This document shows positions 2,419 to 59,671 of a stretch of DNA of 64,000 bases, in pieces. The notes beneath the pieces are model-generated. The model ran no database searches. It worked only from the letters and a program-made list of their open reading frames with translations, and had not been told where the DNA came from. Position 1 is the stretch's first letter. Each line of letters opens with the position of its first letter. Origin of the DNA: Hericium rajendrae (Eukaryota > Basidiomycota > Agaricomycetes > Russulales > Hericiaceae); NCBI GenBank assembly GCA_033439255.1, contig CM065889.1, positions 1,860,001 to 1,924,000 of the forward strand. The letters are read 5' to 3'. The translations under genes and the position numbers were made by a program.

Positions 2419-2450
2419 GAGTATCGCTCACGTTGTCTCGAGCGATACTC
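2419..2450 (-). other. Hairpin of the intron module, E1 left
   Basis: GAGTATCGCTC pairs perfectly with GAGCGATACTC across a 10 nt loop. On the minus strand it starts 45 nt after a GTAAGT donor (2495), directly after a TGTACTAATC branch-like motif (2455-2464), and is followed by a run of eight T. The next AG in minus sense is about 98 nt away. Confidence 0.7.
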
Positions 2451-2994
2451 TCTTGATTAGTACAAGATAGCTACAAGATGACGGTCAATACTTACCTTGG
2501 TTCCCACACACCTCACAAGATCCAATGAAGACAGAATCGTACTTACAATCAATACGCCAGAGTGAAGCAGCAGAGTGAAGCAGCAAAGGGGAGAGGGAAG
2601 TGGGTGGAAGGAAGACGACGTGGCAAACAAAGTCGAGTCGCGCACAAGTTGAACGCACGGAGCCGCGTGGCCCGAGTCGTTTTAGTGACCATATATGGGC
2701 AATAAAACAGCACGGCGTGCGACGGGCCGTGCCTGCGCGCGTTTCGACTTTGAACCAAAAAAAAAACGCGGGGGGCGCGTGGGAAACGTTTGGTTACAGC
2801 CAAACATGTCCCACGCTCCATTTCTGCATCTCAAAGTTGTTCTTCACAGCAACAAAAGGTGCGTTTCTACCTGTCAAATTGCAACTTACACTTTTTCTAG
2901 GTAACTCCGGCAGGATTTGCCGCAGGGAATACAAGAGAGGGTCGCACAGTGAGTAGAAACAAACATTATGCCCTCTATTTGGTACTCATACGGA
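2451..2994. other. Core of E1 with divergent splice-like borders
   Basis: The core lies between the two hairpins. A minus-strand donor GTAAGT (2495) and a plus-strand donor GTGAGT (2949) face outward, suggesting divergent transcripts starting inside the core. A TATATG-containing stretch lies near 2690. The minus strand has an open stretch at 2549-2821 but it has no recognisable domain. Confidence 0.45.
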
Positions 2995-3023
2995 GGGTAT
3001 CGCCTGTTATACGGGCGATACCC
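2995..3023 (+). other. Hairpin of the intron module, E1 right
   Basis: GGGTATCGCC pairs with GGCGATACCC. Compared with the left hairpin of the same element, two stem positions have changed on both sides. It starts 46 nt after the donor GTGAGT at 2949 and is followed by ATTCTTTT. No AG occurs on the plus strand from here to 3242, a stretch of 218 nt. Confidence 0.7.
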
Positions 3024-3990
3024 ATTCTTTTGCGCTGCTCGTTCGCCCGACGTTGCGTGCACCCTCATGCATGGCCTTGGGTCCCATGCTGACCGACTCG
3101 TGCATGCCCCCGCTGATCTGTTCACCCCCCCCCCCACCGATCCTCACACGTTGCCGTCGACGAACGCACATACGTGCCAACTCGCTCGCGCCCCCATCGA
3201 TTCGTGCCTGTCGCCGCTGACCCGCACATCCCCCGTCGACCAGCACACATTCCTGCTGACTCACAGCACACTAGCACCGACTCGCGTGCCCGCGTGGACC
3301 TGCGCGCACATGCATCAATCTACGCGGTCCCCCTTTACCCGTGCCACATGCGCTGAGCAGCATGTGCCCCTGTCGATCTGTTCGCTTCACCATCGGCCTG
3401 CACACGCCCACGCCGACTGAAAGCTTGGGCATGCACAGCTTCGCACGCACGCGCACCTGCATACCGCGCCCATCACCGCATGAACGCATAGAGCATCCAT
3501 GTAAGTGCGGATGCACTTGCGTGCCCCGCGGCAAGGAACGTCGCGATCTGCGAGAGCACCTCACTCTCGGAGAGGCCTGGCCCACTGCGGCCATGGATGT
3601 GTGCATGAGCACGCTGAGGATGTTGCGGGCCCGTCGATCCGCCCATATTGCTGTCGACGGCGCATACCCCCACCGACTTGCGCATACCCGCGCTGACCAG
3701 TGTGCACCATCGACTTGTGCGCACCACCATCGATCCACGCGTGTCCCCGCCGATCCGCGCGCAACACCGTCGACCTGCGCACACCTCTGCCAACTCGTGC
3801 ATGCATGTGTCGAGCAGCGTGCATCCCCATCGTCCCCCTCGTGTCACTGTCGATCCGTGTATGTGCCTGTTGACCTGTGCATATCTCCCCACCAATCTGT
3901 GCATGTAAACACTGATCTGTGCATCCTGCTGCCAATCACATACTCACCCCTAGCCTGTATCCCTGGCCCGTGCACATACCTGTGCACACC
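3024..3990 (+). repeat. GC-rich degenerate array, right arm of E1
   Basis: C-rich words such as CCGCTGACC, GTCGATCCG and GTGCATGCCC recur without a strict period. This is the reverse complement, in style, of the left arm. The AG-free first 218 nt is unusual even for C-rich DNA. Long frames here are uninterrupted mainly because TA is rare. Confidence 0.6.
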
Positions 3991-4822
3991 CCTGTTGATC
4001 CATGCATACATGCGCTGCTGAACACCTGTGGATGTGGCATGTGGGAACTTTTTTGCTGTAGCAAAAGACTTCCCATGGGTGTTGGATCCTGTGGTGCAGA
4101 GTGATATGTGATTTAATTGTACCCTTATGAATAAGACTCATATGATACAAGAAGACCTGGCTATAGTGTGAGCCACAATGCAGAAAATATGAGCCACTAA
4201 CTTGGTATGTGTGTATGCAGCCTTGGCCTCTAGAATACACAAATCCTATCAGCTACAGAAGCTACAGTAGAGCCTCTCTGACACATGTATCACTGAGTCA
4301 TGATTAGTACCTAAACATCGGTTATCATATTTCACCGGTTATCTATTTGTAGCACAGGCACTGATACTGTGGCTTGACGTAACACCATCCTGGCTATCAA
4401 TCAAAAAACACTTTTTCCTGATGTTGGTAAAACAGCAAAGGTAACTTCTTGTGTAGCAGGTGTTCAGGCAGGGCCCATAACCTGAAGAAACACGACTGCG
4501 TGATATGGAAGGCCTGCGTGCCGGAAGTGCAAGGCACGCGGGCACACACAATGGGCAGGGGGCATGAGCGAATTGTTGCATTGCCGTGGGCCCATGCATG
4601 ATGCGGAAGGCCAGTGCACGAGGCGCGATGGCTGCACATGGGAGGGTGGGGTAGGACGTGATTGCATGCACGTGAAAGCGGGGCATTGTGGGCGCAGGCG
4701 GGGTTATCAGGCAAGCAGGCAGGGTGATGCTGGAGCCAGGCGCCATGCTGGTGACACGGCATGGATCTGGAAGGGTTCAGACGGGGTGTGCTTGAGGGGT
4801 TTGGACGACGAAAGGATGACGT

Positions 4823-4854
4823 TCGAGTCCCATTGCCACGGCAACGGGACTCGA
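4823..4854 (-). other. Second conserved hairpin in the GC arm of E2
   Basis: The minus strand reads TCGAGTCCCGTTGCC, loop, GGCAATGGGACTCGA, a 15 bp stem whose only non-canonical pair is G.U in the minus-sense RNA. A sister hairpin lies at 34817-34844. It sits about 290 nt downstream of the first hairpin in transcript sense. Confidence 0.6.
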
Positions 4855-5145
4855 CAACATGGGCCACGTCTGCACACGTTGTTGACGGAGCACAGAAGGT
4901 GCTGCACGGTGGGCGTGCATAGTCAGTGGCCGTGCATAGTCGGTGGCCGAGCGTGCGAAAATGGAGACCGGGGTGTGGGTGTCATGGCATATCGAGTGCG
5001 GGGTGTTGAGGCAGCATACGTGGGCAATTGAGATCGTTGATGAGGTTGTTGGAAGGCGGTGGGGGCGGTGTGAAGGGGCGGGGACATATGATGGGCAGTG
5101 GGGGTCGTGGGGTGTCGAGTGAAGACGTGGAGATGTCGAAAGAAT

Positions 5146-5173
5146 GAGTGTCACTCAAAATCGAGTGACACCC
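5146..5173 (-). other. Hairpin of the intron module, E2
   Basis: On the minus strand GGGTGTCACTC pairs with GAGTGACACTC, with one G.U pair. It follows a GTGCTAACAA branch-like motif (5175-5184) and starts 45 nt after the donor GTGAGT (5218). No AG follows in minus sense until about 4903, roughly 240 nt. Confidence 0.7.
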
Positions 5174-5218
5174 TTTGTTAGCACGAAAAGATAACCAGAG
5201 ATTTTTCTTTTTACTCAC

Positions 5219-5403
5219 CTATAGCCTTTCCTGCTGTAGATCCACCTCGGCCGTGTTGACAGTTGACAGAGAATAAAAGAAAGCTGGGGAAAGAGGAAAC
5301 CGGGAGAAGGGAGAGAGAAGAAAAGTGGGTGAGAAATTGCAAGTCTCGACGTATTAACTCGGGGCTTCAGCCACTGAATGCACGAAGACACACAACAAAT
5401 CAA
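5219..5403 (-). CDS. Small exon of unknown function upstream of the hairpin intron (E2)
   Basis: An open frame of about 60 codons ends in GGAAAGGCTATAG at the donor. The equivalent exon of the 59.3 kb copy ends GGAAAGGCCATCAG at its donor, so this exon edge is conserved between copies, as is the upstream stretch containing CGTCGAGACTT and GTGGCTGAAG shared with 39140-39230. No domain is recognised. It may be a short coding exon or a non-coding transcript. Confidence 0.35.
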
Positions 5404-5601
5404 ATAAAACAGCTAGAAATACGAGAAAAAGGATCAAACTATGTATCATTTATGTAAGTACATTACATGAGCTACATTTCTAGCAAGCATACAGTATACT
5501 ACTAGATAGCATGGTGAAGATATTGAAATCTAACACCTAGTCTCTGACGCGGGGCTCAGCAACGCCCGGCAGCCACGATTCTTGGCTTCGTCCGAGATTC
5601 G

Positions 5602-5608
5602 TATATAA
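5602..5608 (+). promoter_or_regulatory. TATA box of composite repeat arm A (E2)
   Basis: TATATAA is followed by GCTTGCATGATGCACATT. The mirrored copy at 59 kb has TATATAA followed by CGCATGATGCGCATT at similar spacing, and both are preceded by a related GGCAGC...CACGA block. Conservation between copies suggests a real promoter reading outward. Confidence 0.5.
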
Positions 5609-5639
5609 GGCTTGCATGATGCACATTGCCTTTTGCTCC

Positions 5640-5910
5640 TAAACCCTCGCCATCCCTCTTGCCATGTCATTGTCGACATTGTCGTTCTCTTTCTTATCAT
5701 CGTCGCTGCCTCCCTCTCTCCCTCATCGTTGTCGCTACCTCTCTTGTTGCCGTTGCTCCTTCCCTTGTCGCTGTTCCCTCGTCGCCATCGCTCTCATTGC
5801 CGTTGCTCCCTATCTTGTCGCTGTCGCTGTTTCTCTTGTTGTTATCAGTTTCTCGTTCATTGTTGTTGTTGTTTCTCTCTTTCTTCGTTGCTCTGTGTTC
5901 AGATATGTTT
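5640..5910 (+). repeat. CT-rich, TCGTTGTCGC-like low-complexity stretch
   Basis: Degenerate TCG/TTG/CTC triplets give open frames in all three plus registers, rich in Ser, Leu, Cys and Val. Low complexity explains these frames, so no protein is claimed. It lies just after the TATA box and may be the first exon of the arm A transcript. Confidence 0.6.
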
Positions 5911-5959
5911 TTTTATTCTTAGTTTCTTATGTCTGATGTCAAATGCTAATGCTTTTGTA

Positions 5960-6659
5960 CTTGTTATATAGTACTTGTTATATAGTACTTGTGTATGCTT
6001 ATCAGGTAAGCAATGTTATGTCTTAATGCTTTTGCAGGTTTTCGCTTTTTTTTTGTCAGTGTGGTAAGCTTCTATGTTAAGTTCATCATCATCTAAGACT
6101 AACATCTTTTTATTAATTTATATGTTCGCTTTTTATAGTTGTTATAAGTTTGTTGTCTGTTGTAGTTATCTAGTAGTTTTTATGGCTTTAGTAATGTTTT
6201 GTAATAAGACTGAAAAATATAATAATTTTTTAACTTTTGATATTTGTAATTAAGATAAATAAGATTTTTGAGCTAAAAAATGTTTTAATATGTTGGAACA
6301 ACATATTTGACAAAAGTGATATAGAGTGGATAGAAATCTTACTAGCTAGATATAATATCACAATGGTAATATAGTATATACTTGATATAGTTTTTATAGT
6401 TACTTTATACTATAATAGCTATGGCAGCTATGATATCTTATACTCTATGCTATACCAGCTATGATATCTTATACTCTATGCTATACCAGCTATATAGCTT
6501 AGACTCTATGCTATGGTAGCTATAGCAAGCTATGATAGCTATGCATAGATTACTTGACTGCTATGAGACTGCTATGTAGAAAAGAGGACAGCTATGGACC
6601 TAGGAAAGCTATATAGCCTACATAGCCTTATATACCAGTAGTAAATTTCTCAGATGTAA
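5960..6659 (+). repeat. AT-rich arm with AGCTATG/TATAGCT words (E2)
   Basis: Intron-like stretches (GGTAAGC...TTTTGCAG, GGTAAGC...TCTAAG) are followed by dense AGCTAT/GATATC words at 6390-6620 and the terminus near 6659. The layout matches the arms at 7611-8325, 58284-58985 and 60200-60458, with only loose sequence identity. Confidence 0.5.
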
Positions 6660-7610
6660 ATATAAATGTTCTGGTTGATTGAGTAGCAGACTTAGCTTAT
6701 GATATTTTTGAAGTTGTTTACATTACAAATAAAGAAGGGTTTGAAAAGTTTCTTAAGAGAGAACTGATGTTTTTTCAAGTTGGCAAACTCAAGATGCACA
6801 ATGATGTCTTTTGTATCACTATTGAGAATTGTCTCAGCATCAGTTTGTTTCTTGATCAGGGTAGTGATAATCTTGACTTGGTTTTGAAGCATAATAGATA
6901 ATGTCTAACAGTTAGACATGATTGTAGACATATACAGAGAGGATAGATATGATTGTTCACAGAAATCAGACAGTACAAAGAAGTGATTCAATAGATCAAA
7001 GAAATCTTTCTTACCACCTATAGATAATGTGATCAGGAGAACACTTTAAAAATCCTCAACCATGTTCTTTAATATAGCTTTTATCTTTTTTCTCTTCTTC
7101 TCACTCAAGTCCTTTAACTGTGACAATAAGTCAACAGTAGACTTGTTGATGCTAAAAATAGCAAGAGCAGCAGCTAAATCATCTTGAGCTACTTCTGAGA
7201 AGAGCCAGTTTTTAGCACTCAGACACAGGAAATGAGAGCATAAAAGTTGAGGTCAGCCTCAAAAGAACAGTCACAGAAGTCATAGCTCTTCTAGCAGCAA
7301 TAGAAGCAGCTACCTTCATACCTAAGATATTCATGATCGGACTCAAAGAGTAAGATTTACAGCAAAGAGATATCTGCAATAGCAACTGTACAAGATTGAT
7401 TGATAGATGTGAACTGACTTCACATAGTGAATGTGTGGAGATGCAAGTGTGCAGGGCTAGCAGGCATGAGGAAGGTCACAGATGAGGGATATGAGATGTC
7501 ATGTTAGCTACAATGTGAAGATGATGCATAGAGAGAATGCAAGATGTTGAAGAGATAGAAGGGATTATGATGTATTGAAGGTAAACTAAAAATGAAAATG
7601 ACAACAAGTC
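6660..7610 (-). pseudogene. Spacer between two arm A copies, with remnant frames of unknown origin
   Basis: The minus strand has protein-like stretches: 6692-6892 (about 66 residues, lysine-rich) and around 7045-7200 (LAAALAIFSINKSTVDLLSQ followed by a lysine-rich tail and stop). They are not recognised and no complete gene can be drawn. The two composite-repeat ends flanking this stretch point toward each other, which is unusual. Confidence 0.3.
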
Positions 7611-8325
7611 TTCATCTGAAAAATCTGCAAGTGGTACATAACTCTATAAAGTCTATCTGAATTTCATAGTTCCATAGCACTGCCCTTTTCTCTGTAGCCC
7701 ACATAGCTAAAGGGAGATGCTATATAGTACTATAGAGCTCAAGAGTGATACTATGGAGCACTATGATAGCTATGATAGCTGCCAACTATGCAGCTACTAT
7801 AGTATGCATGACTATGAGAGCTATAAGTGTCTATCAAAGCTATGAGACTTATATCACTTATATATTTTATATTCAATATATAGAACTGACATGTCTATTG
7901 AAGCAATAAAGTCTATAAAAACTATAAATTTTAACTAGATTCTCATAGCAAGATCCAAATGAAATGATCACACAAATATGAGCTTTGTTTAATGCATCAA
8001 CATTATATTCATATTATTATACTACTACAAACAAAGACATTACTACTAAATACAAAAAGATCAAAGACACTACTACTAATTATAAAGACTACATTTACTA
8101 CTAAAAGATAAACACAAGAGTTAAGTATACTAGACTTACAAAGATTATGAAAAGCAAAATTAGTCTACAAAATAAAAAGTTGATTAGTAACAAACTAACA
8201 GTAACAAAAGATTTTAAGACATACCAGAAGTGTTAGAAAGCAAATAAATGATACTAAGATATGAATGACATAAGCATAGAGCAGCAAACCTAAAGAAGAA
8301 AGACTTACCAAAGGTAGAGAGACAA
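7611..8325 (-). mobile_element. Partial composite repeat E3 (arm A only)
   Basis: It begins CATCTGAAAAATCTGC and is a direct repeat of 58284-58985 over roughly 710 bp, including the region of TGATAGCTATGATAGCT words and the GTAAGTCTTTCTT intron-like border at the far end. Similarity stops near 8325, before the promoter and core seen in the other copy. It is therefore truncated, about 560 bp downstream of the NOT1 stop codon. Confidence 0.65.
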
Positions 8326-8883
8326 GACCCAAGAAAAGTTACTCCTATGTTATGTAAGAGCTGAAAAGTGAAGCCTTTTTTAATGTTATTAATTGACACC
8401 ATATGCATTCACAGTACAGCTACAACCTTAGGGCAAGAGCAGTCCTCCTGCGAAGTTCATATCTCTATCATTTTTATTTTTCACCAAATTGATACTGAGG
8501 TGCACATTTCTTGACCATGCAACATCCTTTTATGGCTTTTGTTTATTTTAGAATGTTTTATTTTCACTCCTACAGGACTCACAATATATAGAAGGGGTGA
8601 TTTATTGACTTTTTACTATGTGCACCAAATTGTCCAAAAAAAACCAAGGTACACAAGTACTCATCAAGGCAAATCCAGTACACTTTTGTTCACGTCAATC
8701 GAATACCTCCTCGAGGAGCTATGGCAACCGGAACTTTCAATACGAAAGATCACACGACACATCGAAAACAATGCGGCGCCAACTTTACTGCAAATGGCAA
8801 TAATGATAATTCAAGATATACTAAAGTAAAAGAAGTTATAACAGGCAATTTTACAGATGATCAATATAATCATAAGAAAGAAA
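8326..8883. other. 3' flank of NOT1
   Basis: AT-rich, with no gene recognised. Short plus-strand frames at 8539-8921 have no domain-like content. This should hold the NOT1 3' UTR and polyadenylation site on the minus strand. Confidence 0.4.
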
Positions 8884-34319: not shown

Positions 34320-35071
34320 GAGCTGTGCACGAGGCGCGCACGAGGCGTCAAGGGACAGCGGATGGCGGAACCTACGCGAGGTGGCCAAGGGCGGCAGATG
34401 AGGTGGGGCATGTGGATGAGGGGCACGCAGCGCGACAGGGGGCGGGACATGCATGCAAAGCATGCAGCGACTGGCACCGCGCCGTGCGCGCCGTGAATGA
34501 GCGAGGTGCACAGTAGATGCATGAGGTGTCGGGGGCGGCAAGAGACGTGCGGAGTGGTGTGCAATGTGGCAGACCCATCACCGAGAGAGATGCTGGGAAC
34601 ATGCGAGGGGCGTGCGCGAGGCCACGGGCCCGTGCACCATGCGCGCGGGGCGTACACAACACCGCAGACCTGCAGGTGAGACGCACAAGATAAGCAAGGG
34701 ACATGCGACAGTCCCTAGCTATCGCGTGCCCGTGCGGGAGACGTTCGACAGCCGCGGGCCTGTATGCGACGCGAGATGCATGCGGGACCGCGGGCAACGG
34801 GCACGAACGATGGACAAGCCCCATTGCCATGGCAACGGGACTATACCGCGGGTGCCCGCACGTCATTGACAACGCACAGACGGCGCGGAACAACGTGGCA
34901 CGACGGCCATGCATGGCCGTGCGCGCGAACGGGGAGCAGGGGGATGTCGTGATGTGTTGGGCATGGGGTGTTGGTGCGCCCGGGCAGCTCGACGCATTGA
35001 TGACGTTGTGCGATGCCAGAGGGGGCAATGACGTTGGACGGGCGATGGAGGAAGGGCGGGGACAAACAAAC
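34320..35071 (-). repeat. GC-rich arm of composite repeat, hAT-borne copy
   Basis: Same orientation as, and patchily alignable with, 4480-5145: both keep the CATTGCCA-GGCAACGGGAC palindrome, GGCCGTGC words and a GGGGTGTTG stretch. Minus-sense sequence is free of AG for about 82 nt after the hairpin. Open frames on both strands have no domain content. Confidence 0.55.
34817..34844 (-). other. Second conserved hairpin, hAT-borne copy
   Basis: In minus sense AGTCCCGTTGCC pairs with GGCAATGGGGCT: 12 pairs, two of them G.U. The sister hairpin at 4823-4854 has the same loop-proximal stem but different outer pairs. Confidence 0.55.
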
Positions 35072-35099
35072 GAGTGTCGTTCGTTTTCGAACGACACTC
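35072..35099 (-). other. Hairpin of the intron module, hAT-borne copy
   Basis: GAGTGTCGTTCG and CGAACGACACTC pair perfectly (12 bp, TTTT loop). With the 3.9 kb insertion removed, the hairpin starts 44 nt after the donor GTGAGT at 39011 and follows the branch-like TTGCTAAC (38971-38978). The insertion's 7 bp target duplication overlaps the base of this hairpin. Confidence 0.7.
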
Positions 35100-35221
35100 T
35101 GAGGAGGTGTCCCAGTCACTGAAATACATTATATAGGGCAACTTGCCTAAAACGTATTACAAAAAACCCAGCAACTGCTGATCAGCCAGTCGCCGGGCAC
35201 ATTACAATTCACACAGGTAAG

Positions 35222-35298
35222 GCGGCACCCAGGGTGCCGCGAAAACATATGATATTCCAAACAAAACATATCGGCCGAGATCTTAAGGATCTCGGCAC
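35222..35298. other. Two short palindromes near the left end of the 3.9 kb element
   Basis: GCGGCACCCAGGGTGCCGC (35223-35241) and a GCCGAGATC...GATCTCGGC stem around a TTAAG centre (about 35273-35296). The opposite end has an ATTATAAT...ATTATAAT stem at about 38838-38866. Confidence 0.6.
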
Positions 35299-35321
35299 CA
35301 TTACAAAAGAAGCCTACCTGC

Positions 35322-35445
35322 GTGCTCGCCGGCGCTTCCCCCCGCGCTCGCCGGCGCTTCATCCCGCGCTCGCCGGCGCTTCATCCCGCGCTCGCCGGCG
35401 CTTCATCCCGTGCTCGCCGGCGCTTCATCGCGCTCGCCGGCGCCT
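35322..35445 (+). repeat. 22 bp minisatellite, about 6 units
   Basis: GCTCGCCGGCGCTTCATCCC-type units in direct tandem, nearly identical, at the start of the left GC-rich arm of the 3.9 kb element. Confidence 0.85.
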
Positions 35446-36023
35446 ACCATCCCATCCCGCCCTGCCGACGCCACCCCGCGCCCGCTCATGCTGCTCCGCC
35501 CCTACGCTGCGGCTATGCACGCACTGCACGCACACGCCGCGTGCTACTCGCCGTGCACCAGCTGCAGAGCGTATGCGCCGCGGTCCGGTCGGCACAGGCG
35601 CTCGTTCTGCTCTGCGCGCGCCGGCCACTGCACTGGCCGCACATCAGCTGCGCACCGCCGATGGCTCCTGCACGCAGGAGTGGGCGGGCAAGGTGCACGC
35701 ACGAGGATCGGGGTGGGGCACTGGGGTGCGGGGGCGGCGCTGGGACGGCAGGCACGGACCTGGGACGGCGGGCGTGGCGCTGGATGCGCGGGTATGGGGC
35801 TGGATGCGCGGGCGCAGCGCTGGAGCACGCGGACATGGTGGGGGCAGGCGAGTACGGTGCTCAAGTGGGCATGGGCACTCGGGCACGCGAGCTCGCTGCT
35901 GGGGCGCGGGGGCTCGCCGCTAGAGCGCTGGGGGCTCGCGGGGAAGGTGAGAGTGCGGACGGTGCTGGGACACGCGGGACAGGGGGTTGGGACGCGCGCG
36001 GGCAGGGTGCGGGCACGCGGGCG

Positions 36024-36128
36024 CAATGCTGGAGCGCGCAGGCGCGATGCTGGAACGCGCGGGCACGATGCTGGAGCACGCAGGCACGATGCTGGAACGC
36101 GCGGGCGCGATGCTGGAGCACGTGGGCC
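36024..36128. repeat. 21 bp tandem repeat, five units
   Basis: ATGCTGGARCRCGCRGGCRCG units in tandem. The 21 bp length keeps frame on both strands: heptad MLERAGA on the plus strand, CSSIAPA-like on the minus. Confidence 0.85.
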
Positions 36129-36582
36129 TAACACTGAAGGGTGCGGACACGTTGCTGATGCTCCCGGCACGCAACACCATGGTGTATGTGCGGGAGGGGG
36201 GGTGGGGCAAGCACGGGGAGGGCATCTTGATGGTGTACGTGGCGTTTGCGCCCGCGCGTCGTTTCTGCTGGTCCGTGCGCATCGATTCCGGGCCTGTGCA
36301 CGTGGGAGTGGGGGTGGGCTGGCGCGAACACAAACGCACGTGCGGGTGGGGCAGGGGGAGTGGGGATGGGGGTGTCCACGGGAGTCGTTCCGCGCGACTC
36401 CGCCAGGCCTTGATGACGCGCGTTTTTGAGCGCGGGGTCTTGCGTGCCAGCGAGTTGCCCTTCACACAGCTGGGAGATGTCGGGCGCGCATTTGCAAGCG
36501 CGAGGGAGGTGGTGGTCGAGATGGAGGCCCTGGCACGAACGCGCGGTTGCTAGGGCGCGTGCGGCGTTGTCAGGTGGACGAT

Positions 36583-36926
36583 ATGTCGTGTCGTGCGAGT
36601 GTGCGAGCGCGCAGGCGATGCTGGATGCGCGTTTGCGAGCGTGAGGGGAGGGAGGTATTGTGGGGGGGCTCGTCATGTGGCCTGCTATGCCACGTCAGCG
36701 CACTCGGGAACTAAAAAAAGAGAAGAGATAGTAAGTATAGCACGATAAACAAATGTACGAACAAATAACTTACGAATTTGAGGGCTGTTGAGCCCTGGAC
36801 TGTCCCCGCTTGATCATGGGAGGACGAGGAAGAGGATGGGCTTAGCCACGAGCCTTGTGGCACCGATCGGCAATTGCCGAACAGGGCACCGAACGAGGCT
36901 GGCCGAAATTCGAGCACGACTTTCAA
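36583..36926 (-). CDS. Small two-exon gene of unknown function in the core of the 3.9 kb element
   Basis: Start MKVVLEFRPASFGALFGN at 36926; a serine run (SPSSSSSSHDQ) follows; exon 1 ends at donor GTAAGT (36773). A 63 bp intron with a clean T-run and TAG acceptor (36711) leads into about 45 codons (FPSALTWHSRPHDEPPHN...) ending near 36583. Splice sites are good, the protein is unrecognised. It reads outward from the core into the GC-rich arm, as in the composite family, but without a hairpin in the intron. Confidence 0.4.
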
Positions 36927-37539
36927 GGGTAATCAATTTTATTAAATTCTACAAATAATAGTGGAGCTGTAGATACAAAGCATTGATGTAAATACAAAGT
37001 TTCGTATGAATCGAATGGAGAGGAAGCATATTGTGTGTGAAGCATTGTTAAGCACGTCTAAAATGGACGGCGTCTGTTGATAGTGCTAATGCGTCGAGCT
37101 CGAATTGACGTCTCGGGCATGCCGGACATCCGATTCGAGTCGCGATTTCTTAGCATACCTGCCTACCACCATCAATCGGTTTACTGTACTTTATCGGGCC
37201 ACACTTGAACTATATGATCATACTTTATTAGATTTTATTGCTTGCCAGATCTCTAGGATCTGGGTAGGAATGATGTTTTTTGGTCGTTTCAGACTAGATT
37301 CTACAAGTTTTTCGAACCTCGAGGTCTCAACTCTTCATTAAAATATTTGTACTCTTGAACATATATAATCCATAGCCTTTTAAAACGTTTCGCGTAACTT
37401 TCCTGTCCAATTTCGAAGTGGTGAAGCATGAATCACCTGAACTATGCATTAGGGTTACCTAAGTTTACTGTATTTTCGCTCTTCTGACTCTAATTTTGCT
37501 ACTAGTCATTCAGTTTTTCTACTGTGTATTCTATACTAC

Positions 37540-38572
37540 TATAGGTACGTATCGAGACTTCAATGTCTGTCTTATGTGGTCCAGAAATCGCGCAAGACTC
37601 GTCTCCTTCTCCACCCTCGGTCTTCTCGGCCTTCAGCCACCGAGGTTCGGCGACTGCCGAGGTGCATCACAGCTGGTACGCGGCTCGTCACGGTCCTCGT
37701 CCTCTCCCTCTGCACCCACCTCCCTTTCCTGCCCACCCTCCTCCCTCTTCGTGTTCACGCACACCTCCGTGCTCTTTGCGCATCCCGCCCCGCTCTCTGC
37801 TCGCCATCAACCTCTGGCACGTCCGCCGCGCATCCGCCGCACTCCACGCGTCTCGACCACGCCCTCCACGGCCCACCATAGCCGTCCACCCACCTCCACC
37901 CACGCCGGACATGCGCAGAAGCGTGTACAAGATGCCCCGGATGTGTGTGCCCCGCGTATGATAACGTGGACGTGCGCCCGACACTCGCGCTTTCGTAGCG
38001 CCAGCACCCACGCCCACGACAGCACCCGGCGCACGTGGCCGCGGCCTCTACGCGTCGCGCGTCGTGCGCCAGCGGCCCTCAACATCCCCAAGCATCGCTC
38101 GATGCTCGCGACGGGTCAGCAACACCTGCGCGCGACGTGCAGCACCTCGGCACCGGCACGCGCAGCGCAGCAACGGCGCACCGCCCCCTACCCTCACGCT
38201 CTCGCGCTCGTGCCCCAGCACCCCCACGGAATGCCAGCACCCGCGCGTGATGCCCAGCGCTCACGCAGAATGCCCCAACAACGGCACGCCTGACGGCGCC
38301 ATGTGGTGCGTAGCACCACGCTAGCAGCGCAGCAACGACGACGGCAGCAGCGCCTGCGGCGCTGGTGACGTACGTCGCAGCAACGAGCGAGCGGCGGTGG
38401 CGGCAGCGGGGAGTGAGCGCGGTGGGGGCGGGGGCGGGGAGCAAGCACGGCGGCGGCAGCAGGCAGCGAGCATGGCGGCGGGGGTGGGGAGCGGCGCGGC
38501 AGCGGGGGCAGGGAGCGAGCGCGGCAGCGGGGGCGGGGAGTGAGCGCGGCGGCGGGGGCGGCGGGCGCAGGC
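37540..38572. repeat. Right GC-rich arm of the 3.9 kb element
   Basis: C-rich on the plus strand up to about 38300, then GGCGGCGGGGGCGGG-rich. Long open frames occur on both strands and reflect composition. An intron-like border (TACTACTATAG) lies just before it at about 37542. Confidence 0.5.
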
Positions 38573-38733
38573 ACGTAGCCGAGGGCGGGAGGCGGTGAGC
38601 GCGTAGCCGAGGGCGGGAGGCGGTGAGCGCGTAGCCGAGGGCGGGAGGCGGTGAGCGCGTAGCCGAGGGCGGGAGGCGGTGAGCGCGTAGCCGAGGGCGG
38701 GAGGCGGTGAGCGCGTAGCCGAGGCGGGAAGCG
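38573..38733. repeat. 28 bp minisatellite, six units
   Basis: GTAGCCGAGGGCGGGAGGCG begins at 38575, 38603, 38631, 38659, 38687 and 38715, an exact 28 bp period. Units are almost identical, implying recent expansion. Confidence 0.9.
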
Positions 38734-38971
38734 CGCAGGGCGGCGGACGGTGCCGAGGCAAAGCGGCACGGTGCCGAGCGAGTAGGCGCGCTAAGCGCGC
38801 GGCAGTGCATAGTGTACGGCCCGGTAAGCGGCCCTGACCTACATTATAATACGAGTGAATTATAATATGCACGGCAAGGTCCCGGGCAGCAACTGCTGGG
38901 TTTTTTGTAATACACTTTAGGCAATTTTCTGGTACACAATATAATTTCATAGCTGGGACTGGTGCTCTGAG

Positions 38972-39480
38972 TTAGCAAAAAGAAACACGGAAAAAACTTT
39001 CATTTACTCACCACATTCCCCTCCAGCTATAATCCTCTATAAAACCGTCTTGACTATCGATAGGCGTCAAGGACGAGGCGAGGCGAGAGATGAGAGATAG
39101 AGGAGGTAAAGGAAGGAGTGGGAAGCATAAGCGAGTGCGAAGTCTCGACGCGCTTCAGCCACCGAAGTCGAATGCTATGTTCCTCAAGCTTCAACAAATC
39201 AGATAAAATGGCATAAAATAAGAGAAAAAGAGTACAATAATAGATAGTACTTGAAATTTATATGTATGAGAAAACAATGTATTTACCGTACTGTGCATCC
39301 ATGAGCAACAACATCACCTTAGTGAAGTCTGCTGCCCAGTCTCTGATGCAGCTCTCGGCAGCTCCCGGCAGTCACGATTCTCCTGCAGCGCACTCGTCGT
39401 CGCCGGCGCTGTTCTACAAGCCGTTTTCACTGCACCGGTGCATAGAATTCTGTCGCTCGATCACTACATAAGTTAACTGA
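38972..39480 (-). other. Core of the hAT-borne composite repeat
   Basis: Contains the minus-strand donor GTGAGT (39011), an imperfect CGTCTTGAC...GTCAAGGACG stem (39050-39079), the conserved CGAAGTCTCGACG...TTCAGCCACCGAA block (shared with 5340-5385) and GGCAGTCACGATTCT (shared with the promoter-proximal part of E2). The TATA box of the other copies is not seen; the copy is cut off by the hAT end at about 39480. Confidence 0.5.
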
Positions 39481-41365: not shown

Positions 41366-43191
41366 ATGCCACGCGAGATTGTCACGGTTCAGATTGGACA
41401 ATGTGGAAACCAAAGTACGCAACAATTCCCGAAAAATGTTTACGATATATTAATGGTTTTCAGTGGGTTCTGTCTTCTGGCAACGCCTATGTGCGGAGCA
41501 CGGTATTAACAGAGAAGGCATCCTTGAAGAGTGGGCAATTGAAGGAGGGGATCGCAAAGACGTATTCTTTTATCAAGCTGACGACGAGCATTATATCCCG
41601 CGTTCCATTTTAGTGGATCTTGAGCCACGGGTATGACTGTTTGGAATGTCATTCTCATCCAGCTGTCATTCTCATATGGCCCGCCCGCTTGTACACATTA
41701 TAGGTGATCAACAACATCTTAGCCTCACCTTTCGCGAATCTGTATAACCCTGAAAACATATTTTTGTCCAAGGATGGTGGTGGTGCTGGAAATAATTGGG
41801 CCCAGGGCTATTCCGCAGGCGAGCGCTTGTATGAAGATATAATGGAAATGGTTGACCGAGAAGCTGAGGGAAGTGATTCTCTCGAGGTACGTAGTTATGT
41901 TTGATGCTCCGATCCTGCCGCCACTAACCTTTGACTGAGGCAGGGATTTATGCTTATGCATTCCATCGCTGGCGGTACTGGTTCCGGCCTTGGTTCATTT
42001 CTTCTGGAGCGTCTTAACGACAAATTCCCCAAAAAACTCATTCAGACATATTCCGTTTTTCCTAACGCTCAAGAGGGAGACGTCGTTGTGCAACCATACA
42101 ATGCACTGTTGACTTTAAAACGACTAACAAATCATGCGGATTCCGTGGTGGTCCTGGACAACGGCGCACTTGCAAGAATCAATGCGGATCGTTTACATAT
42201 CCAGACACCCTCGTTTGACCAGACAAATCAGTTGGTATGCTATATTCCGTGTAACATAACAATCTGTATCTTACGACCAAGTCACGATTCCCAGGTAGCA
42301 ACGGTCATGGCAGCGAGCACGCAAACCCTCCGATATCCTGGATACATGAACAACGACCTCGTTGGCATCATCGCTTCTCTCATTCCAACTCCCCGCTGTC
42401 ATTTCCTCATGACTTCCTATACCCCTTTCACCAGTGATCAACCCGATAAGGTTGGTCCCGTTTCTTGCCACGTATGCGACAGCCTCACTCATTGCTTTTC
42501 AGGCGAAGCCAGTGAGAAGAACAACAGTACTAGACGTAATGCGTCGCCTGCTTCAACCTAAGAACCGTATGGTATCAACTTCAGCGAGCAAAACTGCCTG
42601 CTATGTATCTATCCTGAACATTATACAAGGCGATGTGGATCCAACGGATGTAAGGCCAACATAGTTGCCCATGGTGCCCAAAGTTCATTGTACTACTATA
42701 GGTCCATCAATCTCTCCTACGAATACGGGAGCGACAGCTTGCCAACTTCATTCCGTGGGGGCCAGCTTCTATTCAGGTCGCTTTAACCCGTCGATCGCCT
42801 TACATGGTTACAAATCACCGAGTGAGTGGTCTTATGCTAGCAAATCACACCAGTGTTGCTTCAGTAAGTCTTATTTGCCACATCATCGGTGAACTAACAG
42901 AAACATTTCACCGCCTAGCTCTTCAAGCGCATACTTGATCAGTTTGATCGGCTGCGTAAGCGAAATGCATTTTTAGAGCAATACAAGAAGGAGAAAATGT
43001 TTGAGAATGGCTTGGAAGAGTTTGACGATGCGCGGTGCGTGTCGAACAACAATAACGATGCCTTGACTCAAACTAGATTATCCGACAGAGCAACCGCTGA
43101 AGAGTTATTGAAAGAATACAAGGCCTGTGAGAGCCCTGAATATATAGGTTATGTATGTGACATTTAAAATATTCAATATTCACAGCAATAA
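41366..43191 (+). CDS. tubG: Gamma-tubulin
   Basis: Nucleates microtubules at spindle pole bodies as part of the gamma-tubulin complex. Ten exons: 41366-41414, 41464-41630, 41704-41886, 41944-42234, 42295-42450, 42503-42649, 42702-42863, 42919-43034, 43077-43152, 43186-43191; 450 residues, the usual length. Visible: [16 protein letters not shown] start; [31 protein letters not shown]; the GTP-binding signature [74 protein letters not shown]-terminal FEEFDDAR region ending SPEYIGYQ. All splice junctions keep frame, with a two-codon last exon. Fully intact, unlike its TE-rich surroundings. Confidence 0.96.
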
Positions 43192-47145: not shown

Positions 47146-47268
47146 GCCAGCGTGCAAGAACCACCAGGATGAAAGACAAACTTGTTGACTTGCCGCCGGC
47201 TGGTGTTTGGTCTTGTTTTAGGAAACGGAACTGATGGCAGTCGAGATTAGCATCCTTTCCCGAGACAA
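47146..47268. promoter_or_regulatory. Short divergent promoter between two unknown genes
   Basis: Only 123 bp separates the two start codons facing apart. No TATA box is obvious. A shared promoter is inferred from the layout. Confidence 0.45.
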
Positions 47269-54576: not shown

Positions 54577-54666
54577 TAATCCGCAGCACGGGCAAAATGA
54601 CGTACTCCCGTCCCATGACATCATGAGGGGGACGGGAGTATGTCATTTTGCCCGTGCTGCGGATTA
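54577..54666. repeat. Palindrome with 38 bp arms
   Basis: TAATCCGCAGCACGGGCAAA at the left returns inverted at the right (54629-54666), with one or two mismatches and a spacer of about 14 bp. It could be a minimal MITE. No clear flanking duplication beyond TTATGTA-like AT sequence. Confidence 0.85.
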
Positions 54667-55329
54667 TGTAAAACCTTGAAAATAGTCAAATAGGAGGTTT
54701 TGTGATAATTTGAGTGTACCTCCTTAACGACTGGAGATATCACCGGTCCCTTGATTGCGTCAAAAAGATCTCTATTATGCCTTTTCAACGACGCTAGGTA
54801 CACTACAATTGGATGAGTCAATAAAAAGATATGGCCTCAACAAGTTTGCCCTTACCTCTAATACCAACCCTTCAGTAATCGCTACCGCGTTTTCTCAATA
54901 CTTACCCGATTGTCTTGTACAATATACCGTTGGAAAGGTATGAATCAGGTCTTTCCAACGGTATCTTTATCGTGTAAATAGCACCACTCGTTGCGCCGCT
55001 ATGATGCAATCACTATGATCTTCTCCTCAAAGGTATCTTTTGAAGTGATTTGCTCATATCTCAGTCATTTCTGAACCTATTCTCATGGAAAAACATGTTC
55101 TGAGGAGGTAAAATTTGCCTTTATCATGTTATCATACATTCCACTCACTTACATCAATAACAAGGTGTAGAATATCCTATTAAATATGTTTATCTGTTAT
55201 TTCAACAAGTTTGCACTTTCTTATACTAAAATCTTTCAGTTCCAATAAGACTAGCATTGATTTACATATGCATATAGTTTAACACTAATAAAATTTGATT
55301 TAGTAAACTGATATCTCTAAGAAACATTT

Positions 55330-55412
55330 AAAATTACAAAAATGACAATTGTTAGAATCGAACCTACAACCTTACTTTAAGATGTGAGAAATTATTACTA
55401 TAAAAGGCATTA
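55330..55412 (-). repeat. tRNA-like relict
   Basis: Minus strand: TGACACCCAGCCAATGTAAT (A-box-like) and GGTTGTAGGTTCGATTCTAA (B box), ends TGACA/TGTCA complementary. The D and anticodon arms do not fold well. A tRNA-derived SINE or dead tRNA is more likely than an active gene. Confidence 0.35.
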
Positions 55413-57665
55413 CATTGGCTGGGTGTCATCTTTTTTGAGTTGAAAAGCGGGTTAGAGTAAACGATTCTAAGGAATCGTAACCAGTTTTGAGACGCTTTTT
55501 CTTATACTGAGCAGGATTAGAAGTCGCCATGACTTCTAGGAGATTTGTTTCATAGCTGTAAGGAATATTTAAGATTTAGAAGAAATATTTGAATCAAATA
55601 AAACTCACTGAGTAGCAATCTGTTGTGATGTTTCAGTAAAATTTCGCAAGATGACATCAGGATGATCACATCCTTCCACTGTATAATTATCAGGTTTGAG
55701 ACAGGCAGGATAATAGTGAGATGCTCCAGGTTTGTGTCGACCTCTTAGAGAACAATAAAATCGACATCCAGAAGCACCATGATGTCCTACTCGACCATCT
55801 AACATGGCCATAGCAGGAGTGTCTGCAGTTGCAAAGGCAAGAAAGGGGTGATCTACACATATCTTCTTCTTTGCAGCATCCCAGACCTTGAGACCATCAT
55901 TTTGCAGAGCTGCAAGATGATAAAAACCTGGAAAAAGAAAAGAATCCAGATTCTTGGGCTTGGTAGGGCCAGGGATAAATCCACCAGGAAGAATGTGAGC
56001 TTTCTTGTAACGAACATCAGGGGCCAAATCTAAAAGAATCCAGATATACATCCAACAGTCTGAGGCCTTGTTTTGATAGAGCTGAGCACCATCAATAGAG
56101 AAGAGGAGCACTGTGTCATCATCTGTGATATTGCCTTGCTGAACAGCATTGAGAAGGTCTGTTCCATGGCAGAGGTCATCATAAACATCAATTTGATGAT
56201 TAGCCTCCAGTTCTGCAATAATCTCTTGCATGCGCTTGGAACGATATTGCATCTTCTCAGCCATCTCAGGCATCCGACGGCGAGCTTGAAGCTGTGGACC
56301 AAGTGGAATGGTGTGAAATTCTTGCCGAGGAACCTGATATCAAATTTAGCAACATGTCAGCACAAATACAAGTTTGCAGATAGCTCACTTTCACCCTGTT
56401 CTTGCTTGCCTGCAGTTTGGCCTGATCATAACGATATTCACCACACATTGGACAAGTTTCACGATCACTGAAAGGTCCAGTAAAGGCAACACATGTATTG
56501 ACACACATGTGATGGATGATAGAAGTCACACCACTGAGTTCAGTGACTGTCTTCTTAGCCATGTCATGTGAAAGGAGCTGGATTGGAGGATTATGAGGAT
56601 ATTCTGCGACAGATGCTTGCACTTCATTGTATATCTCCTGAGATCCACTAGTCGTAGCAAGATATGTTTTGATGGACAGCATAATATCAGGATCATCGAT
56701 GACAGGAGGATGTGAAAGAGGTTTATCTGAGAGGCGGCAGATGACATCAGGAGGGAGATTATCATGCTCTAAAGATGCATTCCGCATGGCTTCAATAAAG
56801 TGCTGTGTGATGCGAATGTCATCTATCTGCGAGAGCGCCGCATCTGCCATGGGTTCTCGGACATCCTCGTGTAGGAGTGATGCTCGGGCGGCAACAGCTG
56901 GCTCGCTTGGCTCGTTTGAGAACTCCTCATCGACCTCCGAAAGACACCCGGGATCGGGTCCATCTTGTGATTCAGGAGGCCTGTCACCCTCAAAAGGTGG
57001 GTCATGCTCCACAGATTGCTGAGTGCCAGTGGGTGGAAGTGGCGGAGAGGGAGAGGGAGAATGTGACAATCGAAGGTGAGGTGGTGATGAAGCAGAGGCC
57101 ATGTCATGCTCCGGAGTGGAAGGTGCTTGATCCTGGGAGGAAGAGCGTGCATTAGCGAAATGGATCTAGTTTATGCATCAGGCATATTCACCTGAGGCAA
57201 TGCTGACTCGGTCTGCTGCGGTTCGTCATTGCTTCCGGGGTGGGTGTCTCCTAACTGGTCACTGAACATGTGAAGATCCTACGGTAGCAAGATCAGAATC
57301 AGAAAGTCAAATTAGCATGAACGAGGGGGACATACATCTGATAGGGTGTCCTCGTGCAGGCGCGGTTGTTTCGCACTTGCTTGAGCATCTTCGTCTGCAC
57401 CGAGACCAAGCGAATGTTTGTGTGAAGCCACATTACCCTGATCGAGTTCATGCTCCTCGGCAGAGGGAAGGGAAGAGCTTCCAGCGGGGGCAGGAAGACC
57501 GGACGACTGAGGATGTGTAGCGAGTTGGAACTGGTCGAACAGCATTGTTAGAGGAGTGCGGTAAGGCGCATGATGGTCGTAGGTTCGACGAGAACACTCC
57601 TTGAGGACTCCTTTGCAGTATCTCTGGCAGTCACAGTAGTACTTGTTCGGGTTGGAAGCAGCCAT

Positions 57666-57959
57666 ATTAGAGAAAAACGAGAGCTATAAGAGACGAACGC
57701 GATGGTAGACGAACGCAATGTTGCAACCTAGCGATAGCAGTGGTGTAGAAATTAGTTATGTAATCTTATCTCATCCTCAATACTACGAGATCTTTCCTCG
57801 CTCTCGCACCGAGTCCATCTCTCCAGGCACGTTGCTCATCCAAGCTTTGTAAGTCTTTTCAAATGACTGTGTTCTCATCACTTATAGATTACAGTAGACT
57901 ACATTGATATCACTATCTCTCGGTAGAAATCCCTAGCGGCAGTTTTCACTGGGGATCAA
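57666..57959. other. 5' flank of Tnp2
   Basis: GACGAACGCGATGGTAGACG and AACGCAATG words near the start codon, then ordinary AT-balanced sequence. The element's terminal repeat was not identified. Confidence 0.3.
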
Positions 57960-58283
57960 GCTGGTGATCAGAGAGGGAGCTCTTGAGGGATTCTTCCAGA
58001 ATGGCACAAAACTGGGCTGCATTCATTCGTTCTTTGTCAGAGGCAGCCGAGAGTGCACACAACAAGAGGCGAAGATGATGGTGAAGACACTGAGTTAAGA
58101 GCTTGAGGGAAAAACGAGTGAGAGCTGGTACGTATATACATGAACAGATAAAAATGAACTAACCCCACCAGATCCGCTGAATGCCCGTGTCATCATCGGT
58201 GACAGCTGACCCTTGTCCACCAGACACCATCTTGTCTCCGGACACCCTCACATCATCCTCCTCCTCAGGACTGAGCACCTGCA
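57960..58283 (-). pseudogene. 3' part of an unknown gene split by composite repeat E4
   Basis: Minus strand: VLSPEEEDDVRVSGDKMVSG...TDDDTGIQRIWW, then an intron-like break and an amphipathic LTQCLHHHLRLLLCALSAAS...AAQFCAILEESLKSSLSDHQ ending at a TGA near 57955. The upstream part continues beyond the element at 60459. Not recognised; it could be a second gene of the Tnp2 element. Confidence 0.4.
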
Positions 58284-59045
58284 AGCATCTGAAAAATTTG
58301 CCAGTGGTACATAGCTCTATAAAGTCTACATAGATCTCCTAGCTTCATAGTATTGCCCTTTATTGTATAGCCCACATAGCCAAAGGGAGATGCTATGTAG
58401 TGCTATGAAGCTCAAGGGTGATGCTATGGAGTGCTATCATAGCTATGATAGCTGACTATGCAGCTACTATAGTATGTAGAGCTATAAGAGCTATAAGTGT
58501 CTATTAAAGCTATGAGACTTATGTCACTTATATATTCTATATTTAATATGTAGATCTGACATATCTATTAAAGCAATAAAGCCTATTGAAACTATAAATT
58601 CTGATTGAATTCACATAGCAAGACTCCAAATAAAATGATCACACCAATATAGGCTTTGTTTAATGCATCAAGATTATATTTATATTATCATGCTATTATA
58701 AACAAAGACACTACTACTGATCACAAAAAGATATAAACATTACACTTACTACTAAAAGATAAACACAAGATAAGTATACTAGACTTACAAAATTTACAAA
58801 AAGCGAAAATAGTCTACAAAATAAAAGGTTGGTTAGTAACAAACCAATAGTGACAAAAGATTTAAGACATACCAGAAGTGATAAAAAGCGAAAATGAATA
58901 ATCCTAAGATATGAATGACATCAGCATAGGACAGCAAACCTAACAAAGAAAGACTTACCAAAGGTAGAGAAGAAAGGTCCGAAAGTCGGAGTGAAAGGGG
59001 AATGTAGTGGTTGAAGAGAGAGAGAGAATGCGCATCATGCGAGGG

Positions 59046-59052
59046 TTATATA
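59046..59052 (-). promoter_or_regulatory. TATA box of arm A (E4)
   Basis: Minus strand TATATAA followed by CCCTCGCATGATGCGCATT, matching the E2 promoter at 5602 in both TATA and the GCATGATGC element. Reads outward (leftward) into arm A. Confidence 0.5.
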
Positions 59053-59273
59053 GGTGAGCGTAGGTTTGCCCGGCGGAGCCCCAAATGTGGCTGCTGGGTG
59101 CTGCCGGGAGTCGTGGCTGGGGCTAAGTGGTAGACTTCAATAAGTGGCCGTTGCTGCCCAGTAGTATATGATATGATACATACCTACTAAGCTCATTCAA
59201 TTCACTGTACTAAATAATTTCTCCTCTGTCGTTTTTATTCGAATTTAATAGCATTTTATTTGATTTACTATGC

Positions 59274-59671
59274 ATGGGACAGTTTGAACTCGCGTGTTCG
59301 GTTGCTGATGCACCGAAATCACGTCGTTCGACTCAGACTCCACTAGCACTCAGTACAATCCCTTCGTTTGCTTTTAACTTACTCCTCTCTCCCCTCGTCG
59401 CTCCTCAAGTCGAAGGTCAGAAGGGCTCGGCGGGAACTGGAAAGGCCATCAGGTAAGTAAATAGAGTCTCTTATCTTTGTATCTGTGCTAATCTCGAGAG
59501 TACTGCTCGTTATCGAGTGGTACTCTCGTTTCTTTTCAGTTCTCTACTCCCCGCGACACCCCGCTGTCTTCGACATCCTGTCACTCCCCCACGCACCTCT
59601 GCACCTCTTCTCACCGCTGCCTCTGTCACCTATGATGCCCATGCATCACCCCCCGGGCACCGACCACCTAC
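59274..59671 (+). CDS. Small two-exon gene of unknown function across the hairpin intron (E4)
   Basis: Exon 1 59274-59452 (MGQFELACSVADAPKSRR...GSAGTGKAI), donor GTAAGT at 59453, branch-like GTGCTAAT at 59485-59492, hairpin 59495-59528, acceptor TTTCTTTTCAG ending at 59539. Exon 2 then adds about 45 codons (SSLLPATPRCLRHPV...) to a stop near 59671. Splice signals are textbook, so transcription is likely; protein function is unknown and it may be non-coding. The start codon is the first in a frame continuing into the conserved exon edge. Confidence 0.45.
59495..59528 (+). other. Hairpin of the intron module, E4
   Basis: CGAGAGTACTGCTCG pairs with CGAGTGGTACTCTCG over 15 positions with a TTAT loop. 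The two non-canonical positions are U.G and G.U in plus-sense RNA, mismatches if read as DNA. It lies between the branch-like motif and the 3' splice site, 42 nt after the donor. Confidence 0.75.

Follow-up and report, generated by a model that had tools for sequence, protein, structure and literature searches.

The locus

The window analysed here is a 64,000-nt stretch of the Hericium rajendrae genome (assembly GCA_033439255.1, contig CM065889.1, positions 1,860,001-1,924,000 of the forward strand), which contains five copies of a hairpin that follows a branch-like motif in an intron-like setting. A sequence-only reading had placed these hairpins and described the order in which donor, branch-like motif, stem and T-rich run follow one another; both the positions and the order were found to be correct, as was the remark that one copy has a weak branch motif (CTCAT in copy 2). 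The features of the window are listed below.

831..4423, strand unassigned: non-autonomous element carrying copies 1 and 2, with ends CATCTGGAAAAAGTG / CATCAGGAAAAAGTG and the duplication TT at 829-830 and 4424-4425 (terminal repeat scans)
2419..2450, minus strand: hairpin of copy 1; donor G at 2495, branch A at ~2457 (TACTAAT)
2995..3023, plus strand: hairpin of copy 2; donor G at 2949, weak branch TACTCAT at ~2988
4832..4845, minus strand: second palindrome of the copy 3 unit body, core GTTGCCGTGGCAAT
5146..5173, minus strand: hairpin of copy 3; donor G at 5218, branch A at ~5178 (GCTAAC)
7613..8320, plus strand: left part of a further copy of the same transposon type, with end CATCTGAAAAATCTG and without a model match there
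34823..34836, minus strand: second palindrome of the copy 4 unit body, core GTTGCCATGGCAAT
35072..35099, minus strand: hairpin of copy 4; donor G at 39011; ~3.9 kb of inserted sequence splits the intron
35104..38966, strand unassigned: separate insertion within the copy 4 intron, with CTCTGAG at both flanks and approximate boundaries
58286..60452, plus strand: element carrying copy 5, with ends CATCTGAAAAATTTG / CATCTGAGAAAACTG and the 3-bp duplication AAG
59495..59528, plus strand: hairpin of copy 5; donor G at 59453, branch GCTAAT, first AG at 59538-59539 (TTTCTTTTCAG)

Copies 1 and 2 are two divergent units of the same single element. The stem starts 45, 46, 45, 44 (joined) and 42 nt after the donor in copies 1-5, exactly as had been claimed, and the proposed joining of 39011 to 35099 in copy 4 also holds, the inserted sequence being bounded by a CTCTGAG repeat on each side. 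Terminal repeat scans placed the left end of the copy 3 element at 6656 and found no right end for it, and found neither end of the copy 4 element. When 53-101 nt around each of the five copies were folded using RNAfold, stems of 12-16 pairs were predicted, with energies of -26 to -32 kcal/mol for the entire folded stretch, and every aligned stem pair in these copies is either Watson-Crick or G.U. A search of the window with the Rfam covariance models returned 0 matches at the gathering threshold.

Copies across the genome and retention of the stem

The hairpin arrangement is real and is far commoner than the five copies first noted. One stem pattern, allowing at most two mismatches, matched the forward strand of the genome 289 times and its reversed form 0 times, whilst a second stem pattern gave 156 matches, again with 0 for the reversed control; the two sets overlap because a perfect stem of the second type lies two mismatches from the first pattern. 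Twenty stem-pattern loci were hand-picked among the perfect matches listed for the first pattern, and all 20, which are kin by descent, have a full-length model match and, as read by eye, a GT donor. Their donors comprise 18 GTRAGT, one GTAAGC and one GTCAGT, and their branch-like motifs (by eye) 15 CTRAY, three CTCAT, one CTAAA and one CTGAA. The stem is kept despite an unusual donor at L015 (GTCAGT), L024 (AT) and L001 (GC).

The collections of copies assembled for the tree, identity and AG counts described below admitted only copies with a paired stem and with a donor and branch-like motif at fixed spacing; since they select for a paired stem, retention rates were derived only from samples chosen by the upstream motif. 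These samples were taken in list order, skipping places already collected and, in the second sample, also TTTTATCTGATTT variants. The first (n = 20) yielded 16 places with the stem, two without the 3' arm (L067 and L083), one that is interrupted (L071) and one that is not this element (L082). The second (n = 40) yielded 37 with the stem, of which the scan gave 35 and inspection by eye the other two (L111 and L112), together with one interrupted place (L141), one that ends at the branch (L104) and one that is not this element (L105). Across the 60 places, 55 have an intron that continues beyond the branch and 53 of these 55 keep the stem (53/56 with L104 scored as a loss; 44/45 after merging copies at least 95% alike). 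One lineage has lost the stem: the 3' arm is missing from L067 and L083, and L104 stops at the branch.

Covariation and conservation of the stem

The partners within the stem had been said to change together, and this has been borne out on a larger set of copies. In a 39-row alignment, both sides have changed at 11 of 15 pairs, accounting for 42 cells against 12.9±5.9 when shuffled. A tree was built from 121 of the 123 distinct copies that came from 149 sites (two had no upstream sequence); on 31 of its branches both partners of a pair change, with pairing kept in 28, against an expectation of 5.76±2.11 and a maximum of 14 in 2000 under a simple tree-based null, with the qualification that the core pattern allows three substitutions and not all rows were inspected one by one, so a few chance matches may sit in the set. 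No other segment is as well conserved from copy to copy as the stem, whose median identity is 0.79 compared with 0.55 when shuffled (500 random pairs among 61 copies); the body is near the shuffled level and the sequence past the intron is hardly conserved. In 35 of 41 cases the stem core begins 6 nt past the branch A, in a search that permitted up to ~16 nt. The hairpin persists in almost every copy sampled while its letters change, which points to selection for the fold. The earlier suggestion of selection on a fold beside the branch point is supported by the covariation beyond the tree null, by retention in introns picked blind to the stem and by the fixed 6-nt position.

An explanation that we consider unlikely is that the palindrome is kept as DNA, either as the site of a dimeric protein (a transposase or host factor) or through equalisation of its arms by template switching, without selection at the RNA level. 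The stems are near-perfect palindromes, with a loop of 4 nt in 89 of 123. The proposal that all non-canonical pairs are G.U stands for the five copies in the window and fails genome-wide: among the 121 copies, Watson-Crick pairing was lost 27 times to G.U and nearly as often, 21 times, to A.C (48 against 24 tip cells), a near balance that is compatible with a palindrome kept as DNA. Palindromes are also not restricted to the intron, given that a second one is found in the element body of 14 of the 46 copies with sufficient sequence, and that additional ones lie in the element shared by copies 1 and 2. Nonetheless, a DNA palindrome predicts neither the fixed position of the stem relative to the branch A nor the deficit of AG downstream of it, and the commonest non-Watson-Crick pair, a G.T in the transcript sense (pair 2, 17/121 copies), also counts against it.

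Splice-like signals and the path to a putative acceptor

Most copies have a GT donor and a branch motif as expected of a U2 spliceosomal intron, the motif being near-perfect in most copies (TACTAAT/TGCTAAC). The typical intron unit has its GT donor ~45 nt upstream, then the hairpin of 12-16 bp, an AG-poor, C-rich stretch and the first AG; some loci have tandem exon-donor-branch-hairpin units. Across 43 diverged clusters, the 60 nt past the stem contain 27 AG against 55.3 expected (GA = 82), with 34 clusters below expectation and 8 above. This deficit close to the stem, the sole hint of its kind, suggests an acceptor AG beyond it. A milder shortage that persists further out tells against the preferred reading given below: 64 AG where 76.8 are expected between 60 and 120 nt, and 59 where 73.3 are expected between 200 and 260 nt. 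C or T precedes the first AG in 59 of 85 cases compared with 121 of 163 for the second and third; the first AG is not enriched in this respect, and hence the acceptor site is not pinpointed. The distance from the branch A to the first AG is long (median 111 nt), and the hairpin takes out only ~30 nt of it. In some tandem units (L044, L045 and L050) an AG lies 17-29 nt past the stem, and pyrimidine-AG ends are found 9-29 nt past it in copy 5 and in the same three units.

The reading that we prefer, with a probability of roughly 0.57, is that of a transposon-borne intron of spliceosomal type in which a 'downstream stem' would mask AGs and shorten the path to the acceptor, splicing itself being judged from the sequence. 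Non-autonomous, non-coding transposons with PlavakaB-like ends would carry the units, exon 1 ending at the hairpin-bearing intron, and the host would transcribe and splice them. The hairpin would conceal the AGs inside its own arms and draw a distant AG nearer to the branch, so that an AG past the stem would be used, and selection on active copies would preserve correct splicing of the leader. The long and only partly shortened path from branch to AG, the lineage without the stem, the palindromes outside the intron and the stems behind unusual donors weigh against this reading. It is also conceivable, though rather unlikely, that the element is a parasite producing a non-coding RNA via the host spliceosome, in which the hairpin directly past a near-perfect branch site would delay or block the second splicing step, exon 1 would be released by spliceosomal cleavage or by a hairpin-gated choice, and the released RNA, or escape from splicing-coupled silencing, would sustain spread.

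By analogy with the telomerase RNA of Schizosaccharomyces pombe, only the first splicing step might take place, which we hold to be improbable: with a strong branch site, a far 3' splice site and the hairpin between them, the spliceosome would cut at the donor and set exon 1 free, yielding a short non-coding RNA. According to excerpts of PMC4299874, the 5' exon of TER1 is released through the combination of a strong branch site with a 3' splice site far from the branch; the Hericium introns resemble this fungal RNA in their branch motifs near TACTAAC and their long distance from branch to AG, release of exon 1 being hypothetical here, and the low conservation past the intron would be compatible with it. 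Against it stand the AG deficit and the nearby pyrimidine-AG ends, which suggest a genuine second splicing step.

The transposons that carry the intron-like units

Their termini suggest that the hairpin introns sit within non-coding DNA transposons resembling PlavakaB elements. Both ends were located for 18 elements, which measure 2.2-3.6 kb, have inverted CATC ends and contain the intron inside. Their 36 ends comprise 18 CATCA, 17 CATCT and one CATTT, as counted in a terminal scan which itself sought CATC-like ends. Target duplications were assessed in the 17 of 18 elements with enough flank (L013, with a single flank base, was left out): 15 have equal 2-bp duplications, the element of copy 5 has its 3-bp AAG and L064 has none. 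An alternative possible end without a 2-bp repeat was noted for L041, L064 and L066. Seven long ORFs from five elements (831-4423, 58286-60452, L064, L065 and L066) matched no Pfam family at E 0.01. Plavaka domains give 132 matches elsewhere in the genome, and no autonomous partner was found when the Plavaka and KDZ matches listed were compared by eye with 100 element ends, the first of those listed. As no transposase was found in the examined elements and no Plavaka gene tied to their ends, they are named only 'non-autonomous, with PlavakaB-like ends'. One element end adjoins a split Plavaka gene on C3, which was read as a nested insertion.

The idea that the copies multiply as introner-like elements, in which the intron itself spreads into host genes, draws on the numerous related structured introns within one genome, but it is very improbable and was rejected, since the mobile unit is a transposon much bigger than the intron that lies inside it and the exon-like flanks of 13 of the 20 stem-pattern loci showed, by eye, element-like C-rich sequence only and no coding exons.

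Comparison with known systems

The downstream stem of the preferred reading has a counterpart in Saccharomyces cerevisiae, where, according to excerpts of PMC12350175, such stems occur in 21 of 88 introns and have been proposed to shorten the effective distance. The yeast stems lie in host genes and were probed in cells, whereas the Hericium stem, predicted from sequence, is one homologous, covarying stem in many transposon copies and starts 6 nt past the branch A. By definition a downstream stem has 6 bp or more, forms in RNA and lies between the branch and the acceptor; here 12-16 pairs are predicted, with covariation. Masking of AGs is cited in the part of PMC4691836 consulted.

PlavakaB elements of Agaricomycotina have termini CATCA..TGATG and target duplications of 2 or 3 bp (excerpts of PMC12730594). 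The Hericium elements share the CATC ends and the 2- or 3-bp duplications, and differ in having A or T as the fifth end base and in the lack of a transposase in those examined; the same excerpts make no mention of hairpin introns for PlavakaB. Introners and introner-like elements, as described in part of PMC9860276, likewise involve introns of spliceosomal type spread by DNA transposition, but the Hericium intron makes up little of the transposon and does not mark its ends. The repeated stwintrons of Hypoxylaceae (PMC9024468, in excerpt) likewise recur within fungi and have inverted repeats and a predicted structure; each of them is a twin intron bounded by terminal inverted repeats, whereas that of Hericium is a single intron with a hairpin past the branch. 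In the literature listed by our search, no description of this branch-hairpin arrangement was found; the genome of Hericium coralloides is the subject of PMC11508549, likewise seen in excerpt.

Structure between branch and acceptor is usually approached one intron at a time. More than 100 distinct homologous introns with differing, compensating stems in one genome amount to a natural mutagenesis, and the copies are suited to the counting of junctions in Hericium RNA, for which the stemless lineage of L067 and L083 is a natural control. They also raise the question of why a transposon without a visible protein would keep a structure at a splice signal.

A single tubulin intron in the window (41415-41463, 49 nt, by eye) has ~10 nt between its branch A and its AG, a gap that leaves no space for a comparable stem.

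Hairpins in the window and in the genome

Copies 1 to 5 of the repeat carry the five hairpins proposed in the sequence-only reading, and reading the sequence directly confirms all five in place:

2419-2450, minus strand, hairpin of copy 1
2995-3023, plus strand, hairpin of copy 2
5146-5173, minus strand, hairpin of copy 3
35072-35099, minus strand, hairpin of copy 4
35104-38966, insertion of ~3.9 kb in the intron of copy 4
59495-59528, plus strand, hairpin of copy 5

The order described there, with a donor (GTAAGT or GTGAGT), branch-like motif, hairpin and T-rich run, likewise holds in 5/5. RNAfold gave -26 to -32 kcal/mol per hairpin region (53-101 nt around each copy), and a covariance model built from 39 copies recovers all five. 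Copy 4 (stem of 12 bp by RNAfold) appears as two weak matches only, because its intron is interrupted by the insertion, which has CTCTGAG at both flanks. The insertion contains tandem repeats of 22, 21 and 28 bp and inverted arms (35140-35212 and 38855-38927), and L002, another locus of the family, is interrupted by end sequence resembling that of this insertion.

The genome comprises 46.8 Mb in 19 contigs, and a blastn query made of copy 5 plus the region upstream of it returned at least 45 matches. Stem pattern 1 (up to two mismatches) occurs at 289 forward-strand places and stem pattern 2 at 156, with no match to either reversed pattern. Since a perfect type-2 stem lies two mismatches from pattern 1, the two sets overlap, and the claim is therefore limited to at least 289 stem matches. 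Family matches were obtained for four of ten scanned window ORFs, comprising Not1 domains (two ORFs), tubulin and Transposase_21; the NOT1 segment shares 98% identity with a protein of Hericium alpestre, which points to a Hericium or a near relative as host. The Transposase_21 (PF02992) ORF lies at 55605-56339 on the minus strand, and neighbouring ORFs reach 57165.

Covariation, conservation and retention of the stem

The stem covaries beyond what relatedness explains under a simple random-placement null, which is not R-scape. FastTree was used to relate 121 copies with the stem itself left out, and parsimony mapping onto this tree put changes at both sides of a pair on 31 branches, of which 28 finish with a standard pair; scattering equal numbers of changes at random gave 5.76±2.11 (maximum 14 in 2000). 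An earlier run with 87 copies had 12 double-change branches, all still paired. In a 39-row alignment made without using structure, 93.9% of cells were paired, falling to 31-54% in slid registers; 11 of 15 pairs showed both-side changes, and 42 cells had changed on both sides vs 12.9±5.9 in shuffles. Over 500 random pairs drawn from 61 copies, the hairpin is the best-conserved part (identity 0.79 vs 0.55 shuffled), followed by the intron upstream of it (0.70 vs 0.58) and the exon end (0.63 vs 0.58), with the C-rich body near the shuffled level (0.63-0.65 vs 0.61-0.62).

Free loss of the stem had been named in advance as evidence against a selected fold. Places were chosen by the upstream motif TTTTATTTGATTTNNT alone, in list order and omitting copies already collected. 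The stem was present in 16/20 places of sample 1 and 37/40 of sample 2 (35 by scan; L111 and L112, with branch motif CTTAC, by eye). Pooled, 53/55 introns extending beyond the branch retain it, or 44/45 after merging copies at least 95% identical. Stemless places in sample 1 were L067 and L083 (mutually 98% identical), which keep donor, branch and 5' arm and lack the 3' arm, L071 (broken by another insertion) and L082 (not the element); those in sample 2 were L141 (interrupted), L104 (breaking off at the branch) and L105 (not the element). L067, L083 and L104, none with a complete stem, belong to a single lineage, which could serve as a naturally stemless comparison for RNA data. The stem is retained in a GC-donor subfamily (GCAAGT; L001, L035, L036).

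A putative downstream stem

The intron of the element probably carries a downstream stem (probability roughly 0.57), which would shorten the path from branch to acceptor and mask AGs. In yeast, such a stem is proposed to reduce the branch-to-acceptor distance (available text of PMC12350175); the intron-like unit, known here from DNA, has the same anatomy. The hairpin would bring the acceptor closer to the branch in the same way, and pairing would mask the AGs present in its arms, an effect cited in the accessible part of PMC4691836. Downstream stems and Plavaka elements are already known; a non-exhaustive search of open-licence literature found no description of a covarying downstream stem across many copies of a non-coding transposon.

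Among the 41 clusters in which an AG was located, 35 have a stem core that begins 6 nt past the branch A. In 43 clusters (<75% identity across the 60 nt after the stem), these 60 nt hold 27 AG vs 55.3 expected from composition, and 82 GA; AG is below expectation in 34 clusters and above in 8. Counts at 60-120 nt (64 vs 76.8), 120-180 nt (59 vs 83.7) and 200-260 nt (59 vs 73.3) are also low, so a milder deficit persists downstream, whereas the last 60 nt upstream of the donor are AG-rich (232 vs 191.7). The AG deficit suggests candidate acceptors beyond the stem; they remain candidates because C or T precedes the first AG no more often than later AGs.

A palindrome acting at the DNA level is the foremost rival, though an unlikely one. 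The proposal that all non-canonical pairs are G.U, made for the five window copies, does not extend to 121 copies, where Watson-Crick pairs changed 27 times to G.U and 21 times to A.C. Internal branches show nine changes to G.U and four to A.C, and tips 48 and 24 cells, respectively; the direction is as RNA would predict, and the event counts do not decide. G.T occurs at pair 2 in 17/121 copies.

Cleavage that stops after the first step is a long shot, argued by analogy with S. pombe TER1, in which a strong branch site combined with a long distance frees exon 1 (available text of PMC4299874). Branch motifs in 89 copies are TACTAAT (32), TGCTAAT (18), TGCTAAC (13), TACTAAC (10) and rarer ones; the median distance from branch A to first AG is 111 nt, and in copy 5 and some other units the first AG lies only 9-29 nt past the stem.

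The mobile unit

L042 and L043 are 99.9% identical across 2872 bp and then stop abruptly, with inverted ends and 2-bp flank repeats (TC and TT). Both ends were located in 18 elements of 2.2-3.6 kb; flanking sequence suffices for 17 of them: the two flanks match over 2 bp in 15, copy 5 is bordered by a 3-bp AAG and L064 has no such repeat. PlavakaB has CATCA..TGATG termini and 2- or 3-bp duplications (available text of PMC12730594); the duplications here are similar, and CATCA stands at 18/36 ends, but 17/36 have CATCT and 1/36 CATTT. Seven long ORFs from five elements matched no Pfam family. The ends, duplications and ORFs thus define non-autonomous elements with PlavakaB-like ends. Comparison of Plavaka and KDZ coordinates with element ends found no autonomous partner among those listed. 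That the unit is an introner is scarcely credible.

831-4423, one element, with copies 1 and 2 inside, divergent
58286-60452, element of copy 5
4832-4845, minus strand, core of the second palindrome
34823-34836, minus strand, core of the second palindrome

Of 46 copies with sufficient sequence, 14, including L001, L031, L038, L076 and others, carry the second palindrome 103-300 nt past the intron hairpin. It has the core GTTGCC-N2-GGCAAC in a longer stem (e.g. GTCGAGTCTC...GAGACTCGAC), and this core presumably resembles an RFX X-box. By eye, element 831-4423 also holds three related palindromes, GGGAA..TTTTGCTGYAGCAAAA..TTCCC, close to both body ends (1275-1310 and 4040-4075) and, more diverged, between its divergent units (2785-2815). 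Loci L044, L045, L050, L051, L054 and L055 have two to four donor-branch-hairpin units, tandem or divergent, some incomplete or weak-stemmed, with AG-rich exon-like stretches in between. A putative divergent promoter is suggested by TATA-like sequence read, by eye, on the opposite strand from the hairpin unit (59040-59060, 5590-5610 and the L042 element).
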